Below, piece after piece: positions 44,537 to 60,781 of a stretch of DNA of 64,000 nucleotides. Source of the DNA: Mesotoga sp. Brook.08.105.5.1 (GTDB lineage: Bacteria; Thermotogota; Thermotogae; Petrotogales; Kosmotogaceae); the NCBI RefSeq assembly GCF_002752635.1, contig NZ_AYTW01000011.1, positions 1-64,000 of the forward strand, in the 5' to 3' direction. Below the pieces are notes generated by a model. It saw only the letters and a program-made list of their open reading frames with translations, was not told the origin of the DNA and did no database searches. Positions within the stretch are counted from its first letter, which is position 1, and each line of letters begins with the position of its first letter. Made by a program: the position numbers and the translations under genes.

Positions 44537-44770
44537 GTCGCAATGCCCGGAAGAGCATCCGGAGACGCATTGCTGCCTTCGGCAGGAAGTGATGCGCCGA
44601 AAAGCATCGGCGGAAGTGATGCCCGGAGGAACATCCGGGGAAGTGATGCTGGAATGAAACATCCGACGCAAGGCTGGGCAAGAACGGCCCAGGTCGCAAT
44701 GCCGGCGAAGATCATGCCGGGACGCAAGGCTGGCGAGGATCATGCCAGGTCGCAATGCCCGCTTCGCGGG
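44537..44770 (+). repeat. Hairpin array A (constant linker plus variable stems)
   Basis: Nine units, each a 9-base linker (GTCGCAATG, GACGCAAGG or GAAGTGATG) and a short hairpin. Stems in order include CCGGA/TCCGG, CTGCC/GGCAG, CGCCGA/TCGGCG, CCCGGA/TCCGGG, a degenerate one, CTGGGC/GCCCAG, CCGGC/GCCGG, CTGGC/GCCAG and CCCGC/GCGGG. Loops recur (AAAGCA, GGAACA, GAAGATCAT, TTC). Unit lengths vary and are not multiples of three. Reading frames through it lack stops only because of composition. Confidence 0.8.
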
Positions 44771-44837
44771 GAAGATCTTCGCCTAAGAATGCGCATCGAG
44801 AAAGAGCATTGTCGAGATGTTCGCTTCGCTCACGAAA

Positions 44838-45188
44838 AGACGAGGATGGAATGCATTGCTTGCATTAGAAGAGAAGTGGGGTGACAAATACCACTTGTCA
44901 ATAAAAAGCTGGAAGGAAAACTGGGAATCTCTCTCAACCTTCTTTCAATATCCAGAGGAACTGAGAAGATTGGTTTATACAACTAATCCCATTGAATCAG
45001 TTAATAGACAACTGAGGAAGGTAACGAAGAACAAAGGAGTCTTTCCTACGGATACTTCTCTCTTAAAGATGGCTTATCTAGCAATAATAAATATAACAAA
45101 GAAATGGACAGTAAGAACCCTTGAATGGTCAAAGATCCTAACTCAACTTGTGATAAAGTATGAAAGATTAGCTAAGTACATAAGCTGA
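44838..45188 (+). pseudogene. IS256-family transposase, C-terminal fragment
   Basis: About 115 residues matching the end of mutator/IS256 transposases: GWNALLALEEKWGDKY, then SLSTFFQYPEELRRLVYTTNPIESVNRQLRKVTKNKG and a C-terminal LAIINITKKWT. The catalytic DDE core is absent apart from the final region. The left side is replaced by the flank of hairpin array A. After the stop, GGGGTTTACACAAAA near 45212 resembles the right end of IS256 elements, so this is the 3' remnant of an insertion sequence. Confidence 0.85.
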
Positions 45189-54799: not shown

Positions 54800-54958
54800 C
54801 AAAAATACCCCCTTTTTCAATGATCGATGTGCTTTTTAGTCAGCAATTCCCTCAAGACCGCATCCACAAAGAAAACCGGGCGCGAGCTTACATCTAAACC
54901 AGAAGGGCATACAACTCTTCGACTGTCCTTAAGAGAAGATTGTTCAACACCTATCAAT

Positions 54959-54983
54959 ATTATAGTAAGTTATACGTCTTACT
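54959..54983 (-). promoter_or_regulatory. Promoter and palindrome upstream of the sugar-binding protein gene
   Basis: A TATAAT -10 lies at 54964-54959 on the minus strand. Directly upstream of it is the inverted repeat AGTAAG-N8-CTTACT (54964-54983), in the position of a repressor site between -10 and -35. The leader to the start codon would be about 150 bases. Confidence 0.4.
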
Positions 54984-55144
54984 GTACGTAACAGTCTTTC
55001 CAAGTTCGCCAGATATTCTTGCTACGAGGAAAGAAGCGGAATCGTATTCAATAAGATCGATCGAGACAAGACGAGAAGAATCATTTTGAGACGTTCGCTG
55101 CGCTCACGAGCAGACGAGGGAAAAGTTAGTCACTGCTGAAGTAA
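54984..55144 (+). other. Conserved flank (leader) of hairpin array B
   Basis: From about 55050 it contains GAGACAAGACGAGAAGAATC, TTCGCTGCGCTCACGAG and AGTTAGTCACTGCTGAA directly before the first array unit. The same words, in the same order, flank arrays C1, C2 and D (inverted) at 60.1-60.7 kb. No gene. Confidence 0.65.
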
Positions 55145-55437
55145 GACGCAATGCCGCCTTCGGCGGGACGCAAGGCGCCGAAGAGCATCGGCGGACGCAA
55201 GGCTGGCTTCGCCAGGTCGCAATGCCCGGAGAAGCATCCGGGGACGCAAGGCTGGCTTCGCCAGGAAGTGAGGCTCGCTGGCGCGAGGAAGTGATGCCCG
55301 GAGGAACGTCCGGGGAAGTGATGCGCCGAAAGATCACCGGCGGACGCAAGGCTGGCTTCGCCAGGAAGTGAGGCTCGCTGGCGCGAGGAAGTGATGCTGG
55401 AAAAATCATCCCAGGAAGTGATGCCGCTTTCAGCGGG
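55145..55437 (+). repeat. Hairpin array B
   Basis: Twelve units of a 9-base linker plus hairpin. Stems in order: CCGCC/GGCGG, CGCCGA/TCGGCG, CTGGC/GCCAG, CCCGGA/TCCGGG, CTGGC/GCCAG, CTCGC/GCGAG, CCCGGA/TCCGGG, CGCCG/CGGCG, CTGGC/GCCAG, CTCGC/GCGAG, CTGG/CCAG, CCGCT/AGCGG. Linkers are GACGCAATG, GACGCAAGG, GTCGCAATG, GAAGTGAGG or GAAGTGATG. The CTGGC-CTCGC pair occurs twice, as if units were copied together. It is the largest array in the window. Confidence 0.85.
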
Positions 55438-56931
55438 AGGATTCAGAAGCCAGTCTTTGCTTTGCAGAGGTAAGTTCCGCTTCGTGGGCTAAGAGCCGCT
55501 GAACGCTGGAGAGAACCGCTAGACGCCAGAAGTTCGCTGTACGCTTAAGAACAAGGCCCAGCTGAACGCTCTAAAACATGGTTCGCCGTTGACCGTCCAA
55601 GAGCGAGGATCCGTTCACCGATAAGACCAATCGAGAAGGAGCATTGTCGAGAGGTTCGCTGCGCTCACGAGAAGACGAGAACTCTCTCCTCTGTCTCTTT
55701 CTCTCTCTTCAACTCGTACCTTCCCGCTCTTACTAACCAAGAACAAAGCTACTAGCTCCGGAACGAGGAACTTGGGCGCAACGCGCCGGAACCGATCTTC
55801 CGATACTATCGGAGAACGGCGAACCGATAACGGATAACCGTTCCTGCGACTTGCATCTTGGAACTTGCAACAGTTTCAAAGATCGAGATCCTGGCCTGAA
55901 CATTGTCAGGATGACGTGAAGTAAGAAAAGACAGTCATCCCGTGATGCCTTTGCACGGGATCTCGCCCTGAAGATCCGCTATACGCTTAAGAAGAAGGCC
56001 CCGCTGAGCGCTGCTCAAAACAACGTTGTCCGTCAACGGTCCACCGTCCACCGGGAAGAGCGTTTCAAGAGACTTATAGAGTTTCTTGGCTTTTGCTCTA
56101 CAACACGCAACTTGTCACTTGTAACTGTTTCAAAGATCGAGAATGACGACTGGCTACTCCCTCTACCCTCATTCTATACTCTCTCTACTTTCTCTCTTAT
56201 GACAATACACGAGGATGACGTGAGAGGCTGTCATTCGAGAGCCTACACTTACGAGCCTGCGCTGGAATCCACTCACTTTCTCATCCCGTAGTGGTTCTGT
56301 ACTGGATCTAATCTCGACTGTCTTGAGCTGCGTACGATGCGGCGTCGTACGATGTAAGAGGTTTGAGGCTTGAGGTCAGAAAGGCAAGATCTAATTGCAC
56401 TTCTTACCTCTTACCTCTTGCCTCTTACGTCTTTTTCTTTTTTGCAATCTCGATCTTGCGAATTAGTGCACACCCTCCGCCACTACGTGGCCCTCCTTTC
56501 TCAAGGGAGGATTTAAGATATAGATTTTCAAGAGGCTAACACAGCACGTATTGTCAAGGGAGAAGAAGCATCACATGATTTCTCATAAACGCCGCGACTT
56601 ATCGGTATGATGAATGTAGCAAGGGAGGACTTAGGATCAGGATATCAGCTTACAAACACAGCATTCGTGCAAGAGAGAAGAACCTGCATGTGAGTGACGC
56701 TAAAGAGCTGATTAAAATCTACTGATTAGTTTCCTCGGGCGGAAACCTGAGATCAAGATCATCGGGAGTTACATACAGAATTTGCGAAAACATAAGAGCT
56801 ATCATATGATTGCCGATCTGCTCTCCTGCACATGAACAATGATAAGTAGCATGTAGAGAAGTCAAGTGTGGCCAAAGGTAGTTTCCTTCAACTCACCATG
56901 TCGAAGTATAACTTGTATGTGGTAGTCCGAC
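55438..56931. other. Long non-coding stretch of mixed short repeats
   Basis: About 1.5 kb without a credible gene. It holds degenerate CCGCTgaACGCTg words (55480-55600), a copy of the array flank with TTCGCTGCGCTCACGAG (near 55650), a pyrimidine tract (55680-55730), hairpins such as ATCCCGTG...CACGGGAT (near 55945), words like ACTTGCATCTTGGAACTTGCAAC (near 55850), a second pyrimidine tract (56395-56440), and CCCTCCTTTCTCAAGGGAGG (near 56500). From 56530 on the sequence is plain. Possibly decayed coding DNA, but no frame is supported. Confidence 0.5.
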
Positions 56932-57135
56932 TTACCTGCTCAATCTATCTTCAACACTGCCATCAGGCAGCACAAAATCGGTTGAATAACTAAAGATCTC
57001 ATCTAGCTGAAACCGCGCACACTCTCTCCAGTTTCTCTCGCAATACATTCTTATCCATTCCCCGTCAATCTTTCCTTCCTCATAAGCTCTAACAACGGGG
57101 CACTCGTAATAGTTGCTACAACTTTCTCCTTCCAC
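56932..57135 (-). CDS. Small four-cysteine protein
   Basis: A 67-residue protein with cysteines at 6, 12, 32 and 39 in the pattern C-x5-C-x19-C-x6-C, within SCSNYYECPVVRAYEEGKI and MYCERNWRECARFQ. Conserved-looking spacing suggests metal or Fe-S binding. GTG start with GGAAGGTGG seven bases upstream, and a possible TTGCAA-N16-TAACAT promoter on the same strand. Divergent from the lipoprotein gene. Not assigned to a family. It is credible as a gene because of the ribosome site and cysteine spacing. Confidence 0.6.
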   Translation of the reverse strand: MEGESCSNYYECPVVRAYEEGKIDGEWIRMYCERNWRECARFQLDEIFSYSTDFVLPDGSVEDRLSR

Positions 57136-58873: not shown

Positions 58874-59545
58874 TTGAGGGCTGACAACGTACTTGAAAGC
58901 GAGGTAGTCACTCTTCTTGAGCAAGGTGACAACTGTCCTGTATGTCGCTCCATGGAGAAGTCGGTAGACGGGTGGGTGATAGGGGCCTTTTCGAATCTTC
59001 TTCATAATGAAAGCGCTCGAAAACAATTAAGAGAGAACGGGTTATGTAGAGAACACCTAAAAAGAATAGTTGAACTGGCAAGAGAGAAATCCGATGTCGG
59101 CTCTCTTGCCGTTTCGATTATCTTTCGGGAGCTTCTTGTTGAGCAGCTCCTGTGGCTGGAGGACAGCAAGGGATCGATTTTGAAGAAAAGAAGAAAACCT
59201 GTGGATGGAAGCTGCGTACTATGTTCTGTTGCCGCCCAGAGTGAAAAGATATACCTTTCCGCTTTCTGCAAGTTTCTTGACAGAGATGAAGTTCGTAGGT
59301 CGTACGAAGAGTCGTCAGCGGTTTTCTGTCTTGGCCACTCTAAGCATCTTGTGGAGAAGGTCTCGCGACAGACGAGAGAATGGCTGATTACTGTTCAGAA
59401 AAACAAGTATGGCGAGGTTGCGAAAGAGATAGACGACTTCGTTTCGAAGCACGACTATAGAAATGAATCACCCATTGGACCGGAACGTAATGCATGGGTA
59501 AAAGCCTCTAGAATAATAGGAGAGAAGCACTCTACTGAACAATGA
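58874..59545 (+). CDS. DUF6062-like protein with paired CxxC/CxxH motifs
   Basis: A 223-residue soluble protein with two similar halves, each holding a CxxC and a CxxH: CPVC (near residue 21) with CREHL (near 58), and CVLC (near 116) with CLGHSKHL (near 151). This duplicated C-C-C-H arrangement suggests two metal sites, zinc or iron. I associate it with the uncharacterised family DUF6062, but only by pattern. TTG start behind CAGGTGATGGC, closely spaced after the lipoprotein gene. Confidence 0.65.
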   Translation: MRADNVLESEVVTLLEQGDNCPVCRSMEKSVDGWVIGAFSNLLHNESARKQLRENGLCREHLKRIVELAREKSDVGSLAVSIIFRELLVEQLLWLEDSKGSILKKRRKPVDGSCVLCSVAAQSEKIYLSAFCKFLDRDEVRRSYEESSAVFCLGHSKHLVEKVSRQTREWLITVQKNKYGEVAKEIDDFVSKHDYRNESPIGPERNAWVKASRIIGEKHSTEQ

Positions 59546-59840
59546 ATCAAACCACTTTGGCAGTCAACGGTTCACAGGCCTAGGAGAAGGACCGAGAAGA
59601 CCCTTTGAGTTTGAGATGAAGCTTGGCGCTAAGAGCCGTTATTGGTGATACGTGGTTGGTAGTTGGCCAAGAACAAAGAGCTAAAGTTCCTATCAAGTAA
59701 AGAATAGCAAAATCCGGTTTGTCAAAACCAACTCAGTTTGTCGGCCTGACAATTTCCTGGTAACGGTATGCCATGCTCTGGCAATATGACCTTGACCAAG
59801 AACGAAGAACAGATCCTCGCTCCCAAGAACAGATCTTTCC
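59546..59840. other. Non-coding flank of the tandem repeat
   Basis: No credible gene. It contains words shared with the 55.7-kb region, such as CCAAGAACAAAG (59671 and 55738) and the related CCAAGAACGAAG (59797). From 59841 the tandem 354-base repeat begins. Confidence 0.45.
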
Positions 59841-59941
59841 TCTTGGACGGTCAACGGATTACGGCTCTACCCTGCGTACAGCCTTCAGCGGTTTTTGTGA
59901 CCAGCAAAAACTGAGATCGACTCCTGCTCTTTCGCTTCATC

Positions 59942-60095
59942 CTGGGGCGCAAGCGCCAGCATCGCTTCCGCCGGTGATCTTTCGGCGCATCACTTCCCCG
60001 GACGTTCCTACGGGCATCACTTCCTCGCGCCAGCGAGCATCACTTCCTGGCGAAGCCAGCCTTGCGTCCGCCGATGCTCTTCGGCGCCTTGCGTC
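59942..60095 (-). repeat. Hairpin array C1
   Basis: Read on the minus strand: GACGCAAGG plus CGCCGA/TCGGCG, GACGCAAGG plus CTGGC/GCCAG, GAAGTGATG plus CTCGC/GCGAG, GAAGTGATG plus CCCGTA/TCCGGG (one mismatch), GAAGTGATG plus CGCCG/CGGCG, then GAAGCGATG plus a CTGG/CCAG-type end unit. The flank AGTCACTGCTGAAATTA precedes the first unit. Confidence 0.85.
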
Positions 60096-60295
60096 TAATT
60101 TCAGCAGTGACTGACTTTTCACTCGCCTTTTCGTGAGCGAAGCGAACCTCTCGACAAAGCTCCTTCTCGATTGGTCTTATCGGTGAACGGATCCTCTTGG
60201 ACAGCCAACGGATTACGGCTCTACCCTGCGTACAGCCTTCAGCGGATCTTTGTGACCAGCAAAAACTGAGATCGACTCCTGCTCTTTCGCTTCAT

Positions 60296-60449
60296 GCTGG
60301 GGCGCAAGCGCCAGCATCGCTTCCGCCGGTGATCTTTCGGCGCATCACTTCCCCGGACGTTCCTACGGGCATCACTTCCTCGCGCCAGCGAGCGTCACTT
60401 CCTGGCGAAGCCAGCCTTGCGTCCGCCGATGTTCTTTCGACGCCTTGCG
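60296..60449 (-). repeat. Hairpin array C2
   Basis: Second copy of array C within the 354-base tandem repeat. Same unit order as C1, including the same stem mismatch, with a few substitutions in loops (GAACATCGGCG in place of GAGCATCGGCG in the first unit). Confidence 0.85.
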
Positions 60450-60591
60450 TCTAATTTCAGCAGTGACTAACTTTTCACTCGCCTTCTCGTGAGCGCAGCG
60501 ACCGTCTCTATCAGCTCTTTATCGATGCTTCTTATTGGTCTCGCAAGGCAGAAACTGGTCTGTGCGAACAGACAGGCTTCAAAATCGCCTC

Positions 60592-60712
60592 CTGCCGAAG
60601 GCAGCCTTGCGTCCCCGGATGCTCCTCCGGGCATCACTTCCTCGCGCCAGCGAGCATCACTTCCTGGCGAAGCCAGCCTTGCGTCCGCCGATGCTCTTCG
60701 GCGCCTTGCGTC
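60592..60712 (-). repeat. Hairpin array D
   Basis: Five units on the minus strand: CGCCGA/TCGGCG, CTGGC/GCCAG, CTCGC/GCGAG, CCCGGA/TCCGGG, CTGCC/GGCAG. The first three units and the preceding CACTGCTGAAATTA flank are the same as in C1 and C2, while the later units differ. Confidence 0.85.
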
Positions 60713-60767
60713 TAATTTCAGCAGTGTCTTTTGAGAGGTTCTTCATGGAGCTTTGTAATCGTGGTAT

Positions 60768-60781
60768 GTAACATATGTTAC
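60768..60781. promoter_or_regulatory. Crp/Fnr-type (HcpR-like) palindrome upstream of DUF438 gene
   Basis: GTAACATATGTTAC is a perfect 14-base palindrome. Half sites GTAAC/GTTAC are typical of Crp/Fnr-family sites, including HcpR-type nitrosative-stress regulators in anaerobes. A TACGAT -10 at 60804-60809 would put transcription start near 60816, which places the palindrome centre at -41.5, the class II activator position. Regulator identity is inferred. Confidence 0.6.

Follow-up and report, generated by a model that had tools for sequence, protein, structure and literature searches.

Modular arrays of covarying hairpins in Mesotoga genomes: candidate mobile palindromic DNA repeats

The window, a 64,000-nt stretch of a Mesotoga genome (contig NZ_AYTW01000011.1, positions 1 to 64,000), contains five arrays in which a short linker alternates with hairpins. 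The initial annotation, made from the letters alone, had placed these arrays correctly and described the rule that they obey; the only boundary to change was the end of the fourth array, which lies at 60451, and all nine of the stems that it listed are present. The features are as follows.

44537–44770, + strand: array 1, with 9 linkers in linker-hairpin units, adjoining a Mutator-family transposase fragment
54862–56932, no strand: expanded intergenic region of 2.07 kb that holds array 2
55145–55437, + strand: array 2, with 12 units in which GACGCAAKG and GAAGTGAKG linkers are mixed
55450–55490, + strand: degenerate stretch of a second hairpin grammar of the same design, its linker being GCCAGT
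59525–60768, no strand: intergenic region of 1.24 kb that holds arrays 3 to 5
59838–60508, no strand: tandem duplication, with copies at about 59838–60152 and 60192–60508, each comprising an array together with its flanks
59942–60095, − strand (the linker strand): array 3, with 6 units
60296–60451, − strand: array 4, with 6 units, a near copy of array 3 through tandem duplication with 355-bp spacing
60592–60712, − strand: array 5, with 5 units

The transposase fragment directly beside array 1 is a Mutator-family C terminus at 44817–45188.

Each unit consists of a 9-nt linker and a hairpin, in most cases of 13, 14, 18, or 19 nt, and units are mostly 22, 23, 27, or 28 nt long. The linker had been described as constant; it is indeed a constant 9-nt element, but it exists in two linked forms rather than one, type A (GACGCAAKG or GTCGCAAKG) and type B (GAAGTGAKG). 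The stems had been called variable, and their arms do change jointly, but they are drawn from a recurrent vocabulary of approximately 17 perfect arms and do not vary freely. In the 18-nt class, C-NNN-GA-(6 nt)-TC-N'N'N'-G, and the 13-nt class, C-NNN-C-TNC-G-N'N'N'-G, compensatory change sits in the three N pairs of the stem, while the closing C-G pair is invariant in the aligned sets and the linker and inner loop are nearly constant. Of the 294 parsed units, 225 have stems with 5 or more Watson-Crick pairs. We also considered an alternative stem, formed by GATGC in the linker and GCATC in the loop, and rejected it because it is present only in part of the units. The arrays had been judged neither coding nor CRISPR, and both judgments held; where a CRISPR array would have unique spacers between identical repeats, the variable part here is a recurrent, self-complementary vocabulary. 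A search of Rfam gave no match in the window at the gathering threshold.

Covariation in favor of structure, the central claim made from the letters, was borne out. In gap-free alignments, the covariation score was 0.557 for 27-nt units (0.145 when shuffled) and 0.541 for 22-nt units (0.161 when shuffled), with 0/500 shuffles as high in either case, and controls in which the pairing partner was slid along the unit reached at most 0.14. Among 42 distinct 27-nt units, pairs 11/26, 12/25, and 13/24 take up to four Watson-Crick forms (C-G, G-C, T-A, and A-T), and 94% of the cells pair. The two arms are fully complementary in 16 of 65 distinct arm pairs, compared with 1.4 after permutation of the arms.

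All units of an array face one way, head to tail. Units recur, far more often than chance would give, in the whole genome from which the window was taken (G000; 2.99 Mb in 61 contigs). The linker GAAGTGATGC has 79 sites in the whole genome and its reversed pattern has 1; for GWCGCAAKGC, the numbers are 162 and 5. At least 240 units were found genome-wide, compared with 6 by the reversed-pattern controls. When hairpins were chained de novo with the linker ignored, 58 chains of at least three perfect hairpins were obtained in 268 kb and the same linkers were recovered; no chain of this length was found in shuffled sequence of the first 20 loci (104 kb). Neighboring units seldom share a stem: 6 of 251 adjacent pairs are identical, where 13.4 are expected from shuffling within arrays (0.4% of these shuffles are as low) and 28.2 from global shuffling. 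Such avoidance of identical neighbors fits the loss of identical modules by recombination.

The piece at 55450–55490 belongs to a second kind of repeat, in which GCCAGT is followed by a hairpin of 11 to 17 nt. It occurs in the array-bearing genomes, with 35 two-linker matches in G000 and 70 in G029; G026 and two genomes from a different genus of this family match it weakly. With up to one mismatch allowed, these hairpins comprise 67 distinct sequences; 31 have no mismatch and show about a dozen different arms, and the loop is TNC in 53/67. GCCAGT pieces are found in the window, at C8:40867-41227 of G000, and at many other loci, often directly after 9-nt-linker arrays. Because an unrelated linker carries the same design, the design is not tied to one linker.

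Whether the arrays are RNA or DNA features was addressed through mismatches, loops, folding, and gene orientation, and all four tests speak against an RNA gene. Stem mismatches show no excess of G-T over A-C: the counts are 18 and 19 in a first set of stems, 11 and 17 when the set is enlarged and only the five outermost pairs are counted, and 8 and 8 in the GCCAGT grammar, although the mismatches are few and would be compatible with an RNA role with a weak G-U preference. In linker-anchored hairpins, overlapping loci included, loops of 3 nt read TNC in 163/172 and loops of 4 nt read TNNC in 52/53, with the inverse never seen; among distinct 13-mers, TNC loops make up 17/21. On the complementary strand, these are GNA and GNNA loops closed by a C-G pair, which have been reported for DNA mini-hairpins that are extraordinarily stable and resist nucleases (PMC4686876). 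Linker-anchored tetraloops on this strand are all GNYA in G000 and in the G025 sample, and with a pyrimidine as their third base they do not belong to the RNA GNRA class. Among perfect triloop hairpins, 159 of 451 are C(GNA)G in G000, compared with 18 of 510 in the array-free genome G023. The commonest hairpins, of 18 and 19 nt, have loops of 6 to 9 nt that fall outside the GNA/GNNA rule, and this is the chief weakness of the case for DNA mini-hairpins. In predicted folds of array 2, the complementary strand as DNA gave a z score of −1.92 and the linker strand as RNA gave −0.05, a fold no better than that of shuffled sequence; whole-array scores of this size are modest.

The setting of the arrays was also considered. 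The flanking gene and the linker share a strand in 39/79 and 43/79 cases, and the median distances to these genes are 300 and 596 bp, so that the bias toward neighboring genes or a strand for which a check had been proposed did not appear as co-orientation. Along the G025 chromosome, arrays do show a strand bias (P = 8e-5 per array), which falls to P = 0.10 after clusters are collapsed and is suggestive only of a link to replication strand. Csr-type regulator sites, considered because a GGA stands at each stem end, were set aside, there being no orientation or transcription evidence for them.

The RNA reading that the initial annotation implied fared poorly against these data. Tandem RNA hairpins, transcribed and acting as a sponge, terminator, mRNA stabilizer, or protein scaffold, would have their stems kept by selection on RNA, and the compensatory changes and the conserved linker and loop are what such a function would produce; moreover, the RepRanger study counts many M. 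prima REP candidates and argues that REPs are often transcribed (PMC12306157). We nevertheless regard an RNA function as unlikely, given the lack of a G-U excess, the linker-strand RNA z score near zero, the lack of an Rfam match, an orientation that is random with respect to genes at the distances given above, and complementary-strand tetraloops that in G000 are GNYA and not GNRA.

Among the genomes scanned, the arrays are confined to part of one genus. A pattern with two linkers matches 7 of 10 Mesotoga genomes and 0 of 93 other Thermotogota, and the control pattern matches zero; the three Mesotoga genomes with no arrays, G023, G026, and G027, are 91 to 99% complete. In a gene tree of eight genomes, carriers and noncarriers are split across a branch with support of 100/99. 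No arrays with other linkers were found by a hairpin-chain search of 400 kb of the array-free G023, and a covariance model gave matches only at chance level in that genome. Contigs scanned outside Mesotoga yielded only Mesotoga-like metagenome-assembled genomes, two apparently misbinned contigs, and coding repeats or chance matches, and the viral contigs scanned yielded no array-like match. Of these two, L151 (JALHHH010000130.1), labelled Bacteroidales, is 94 to 96% identical to G025 over its best stretches, and L155 (JAKQCT010000020.1), labelled Acidobacteriota, is 98.6% identical to G025 over 3.66 kb; both are close to M. prima-like sequence and are probably misbinned.

Among related carriers, the same places can be filled or empty. 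The region at 54862–56932, which spans 2.07 kb between two conserved genes in the window, measures 0.41 to 0.47 kb and is array-free in G024, G025, G029, and G031, and the region at 59525–60768 (1.24 kb) measures about 0.66 to 0.78 kb and is array-free in the same four genomes. Other islands for which both flanks were found in the sampled G025 sequence include several that are array-free there and several with the opposite array orientation. Differences in the presence of arrays between species at orthologous places are, like the structure, polarity, and distribution of the arrays, directly observed. They could have arisen through loss, though four relatives agree; transposition itself was not observed. 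At a larger scale, the array pattern of G025 C1 at about 1.822 to 1.839 Mb recurs at 1.898 to 1.916 Mb at an exact offset of 76,303 bp, as would be expected from a large segmental duplication or from a repeat in the assembly.

The best-defined boundaries lie outside the window: in two species, an element of approximately 280 to 290 bp that starts with a string of five hairpins sits inside CRISPR repeats.

G000 C59:13500-19000 (L044): CRISPR-inserted element, 4 copies
G025 C1:1730001-1745000 (L214): CRISPR-inserted element, 6 to 8 copies

The insertion point is fixed. The element always follows ...AACCATAGTGGTATG, and this 15-mer recurs at the other end of the element; a tandem pair in G025 stands head to tail with one 15-mer between its members. 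These direct repeats of approximately 15 bp look like a target duplication, and among the arrays examined they are known only at the CRISPR insertions, an observation that bears on a comparison with MITEs, which are recognized by terminal inverted repeats together with a target-site duplication. There may, however, have been a single insertion that was multiplied as repeats were copied in the course of CRISPR adaptation.

These insertions bear on two further explanations. The arrays might be passive tandem repeats, whose units multiply through nothing more than slippage, recombination, and template switching that corrects palindromes (PMC8794818), with no enzyme that recognizes them. In favor of this view, an array and its flanks were tandemly duplicated, mismatched intermediates are few, and template switching has been put forward as a way in which perfect stems arise and are kept. 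Simple slippage, by contrast, should produce identical neighbors, the opposite of what is seen; the arrays are spread over dozens of intergenic sites, loop type and polarity are kept across two unrelated linkers, and direct repeats flank the CRISPR insertions. A purely passive origin is thus, in our estimation, improbable, to about the same degree as an RNA function. The arrays might instead be folded recombination sites akin to integron attC sites, with the genes between them as cassettes, an idea to which the retention of structure over sequence, the direct repeats, and the head-to-tail double insertion in CRISPR repeats lend some appeal, as do three tandem 23S-rRNA-IVP genes split by arrays. 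We find this explanation the least credible, as no integron integrase scored above the curated cutoff in the 10 genomes and most arrays do not lie between cassette-like single genes. The tandem genes, which encode four-helix bundle proteins, are at C8:36476-38456 of G000 (L052:1976-4004); there, the stop codon context, AAGAAGTGA, is also where a linker starts. Genes of the 23S-rRNA-IVP family, which has 20 matches in G000, were rejected as partners of the arrays because their presence does not match the array distribution. Neither these genes nor those for Y1/RAYT transposases or integron integrases explain where arrays are found.

We favor, with some confidence, the reading that the arrays are clade-specific, nonautonomous, modular palindromic DNA repeats that are mobile, look fast-moving, and reshuffle at the DNA level, and not an RNA gene. 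This reading draws on covariation around a fixed linker, loop, and closing pair with no G-T excess; on GNA/GNNA loops on the complement, whose DNA fold exceeds the RNA fold of the linker strand; on the lack of co-orientation with genes; on array-free orthologous gaps and CRISPR insertions with direct repeats; and on carriers that fall on one side of a well-supported branch, the few identical neighbors, and the second linker.

The in vivo folding, enzyme, and copying route that we infer would be as follows. When single-stranded, as the lagging-strand template or in an extruded cruciform, the complementary strand would fold as a string of independent, very stable DNA mini-hairpins, each carrying a CGTC/CTTC-type tag at its 5' foot. 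A putative enzyme of the host or the element would read the tag and the shape of the hairpin but not the stem sequence and would copy or move the string. If only shape matters, stems may change provided that both arms change jointly, and such concerted change could come from template switching between the arms, a process for which a role in forming and keeping perfect stems has been proposed in RNA genes (PMC8794818), or from the swapping of whole modules. The linkers, being identical, would allow recombination or slippage that shortens and reshuffles arrays and removes identical neighbors, with no transcript needed.

Stem changes that compensate one another are commonly read as proving that an RNA is functional; in the arrays, they are accompanied by features of the opposite kind: no preference for G·U, DNA-type loops on the other strand, and no orientation with respect to genes. 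This combination makes Mesotoga a natural test case for the upkeep of perfect palindromes at the DNA level and for movement of REP-like repeats without a RAYT. Because some Mesotoga genomes carry dozens of intergenic arrays with hundreds of units and others carry none, their comparison could reveal the enzyme responsible for movement.

The arrays had been thought to match no described repeat class. This holds to the extent that we found none with exactly this design in the searchable literature, but CGTC-tagged REPs and the BOX and BIME mosaics are close kinds. Among these, the CGTC-tagged REPs include CGTC-3 of M. prima and K. olearia, have no dedicated transposase, and show a preference for unlike partners that their authors note as unexplained (Di Nocera et al. 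2013, PMC3733652). Like the arrays, they are short extragenic palindromes of Thermotogae with variable stems, and they carry an unpaired 4-nt tag at the foot (CGTC, also TGTC or CCTC). The arrays share the position of this tag and the lack of a dedicated transposase, but the letters there vary: on the folding strand, the 4 nt on the 5' side of the hairpin are CTTC in 165, CGTC in 123, CGAC in 30, and CCTC in 14 of approximately 340 units. They differ in having stems of 8 to 9 bp that start with A-T, loops of 4 to 5 nt, a CCA-type tail, and mostly head-to-head (HH) dimers, the head-to-tail (HT) arrangement being negligible, whereas the arrays have stems of 4 to 6 bp that start with C-G (mostly 5 to 6 bp, one of 7; the aligned sets have C-G as their first pair without exception), loops of 3 to 9 nt, and head-to-tail order at a constant 9-nt spacing. 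Classical-looking CGTC-3-like REPs (TGTCATCC..GGAT) with covarying stems coexist separately with the arrays, at about 90 to 100 per 400 kb in both G025 and the array-free G023, and were seen at L100, L101, L116, L118, and other loci; their abundance in G023 implies that they predate the arrays or spread separately. RepRanger counts 1,814 REP candidates in M. prima and, in the part of the article that we could consult, describes no arrays (PMC12306157).

GTAG REPs, BIMEs, and REPINs resemble the arrays in their many extragenic palindromes per genome, their mosaic clusters, and the tag on the 5' side of the hairpin. The arrays, in contrast, have no GTAG/GTGG tag, do not alternate in orientation, and do not track with Y1/RAYT genes: Y1 genes are absent from the array-rich G024 and G025 and present in the array-free G023 and G026. 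Intact Y1 genes are not flanked by units, and the sole Y1 near an array is a broken frame with 4 stops (G000 C16:133711-134073, L067), approximately 340 bp from an 8-unit array. Palindromic form, extragenic position, high copy number, and the CTTC, CGTC, CGAC, and CCTC tags would all suit a member of the REP/BIME/REPIN group moved by a RAYT, or of the CGTC-tagged superfamily, which does without a dedicated transposase. The differences in dimer order, stem length, and first base pair, the mismatch with Y1 genes, and the separate presence of classical REPs make such membership, in our judgment, decidedly improbable.

BOX elements of Streptococcus are likewise modular intergenic repeats with a variable number of hairpin modules and were mobile in the past (PMC3049150), but they have defined boxA and boxC ends and a single boxB sequence; array modules differ among themselves, and the arrays show several recurrent left and right flanks with no single pair of ends. 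Mini-hairpins of the d(GCGAAGC) type follow the same GNA/GNNA loop rule with a C-G closing pair (PMC4686876) and are known as in vitro structures; no genomic arrays of them were found in the searchable literature. More speculatively, the arrays may represent a separate class of mobile DNA in which shape is the signal, namely, strings of GNA/GNNA mini-hairpins in which polarity and spacing are fixed and 3-bp stem barcodes are interchangeable. Such strings would be read by a putative single-stranded DNA enzyme and could insert into CRISPR repeats, and the GCCAGT grammar would be a sister family. For the present, judging from their design, we would file the arrays as a kind of palindromic repeat beside REP and BOX elements and outside any named family.
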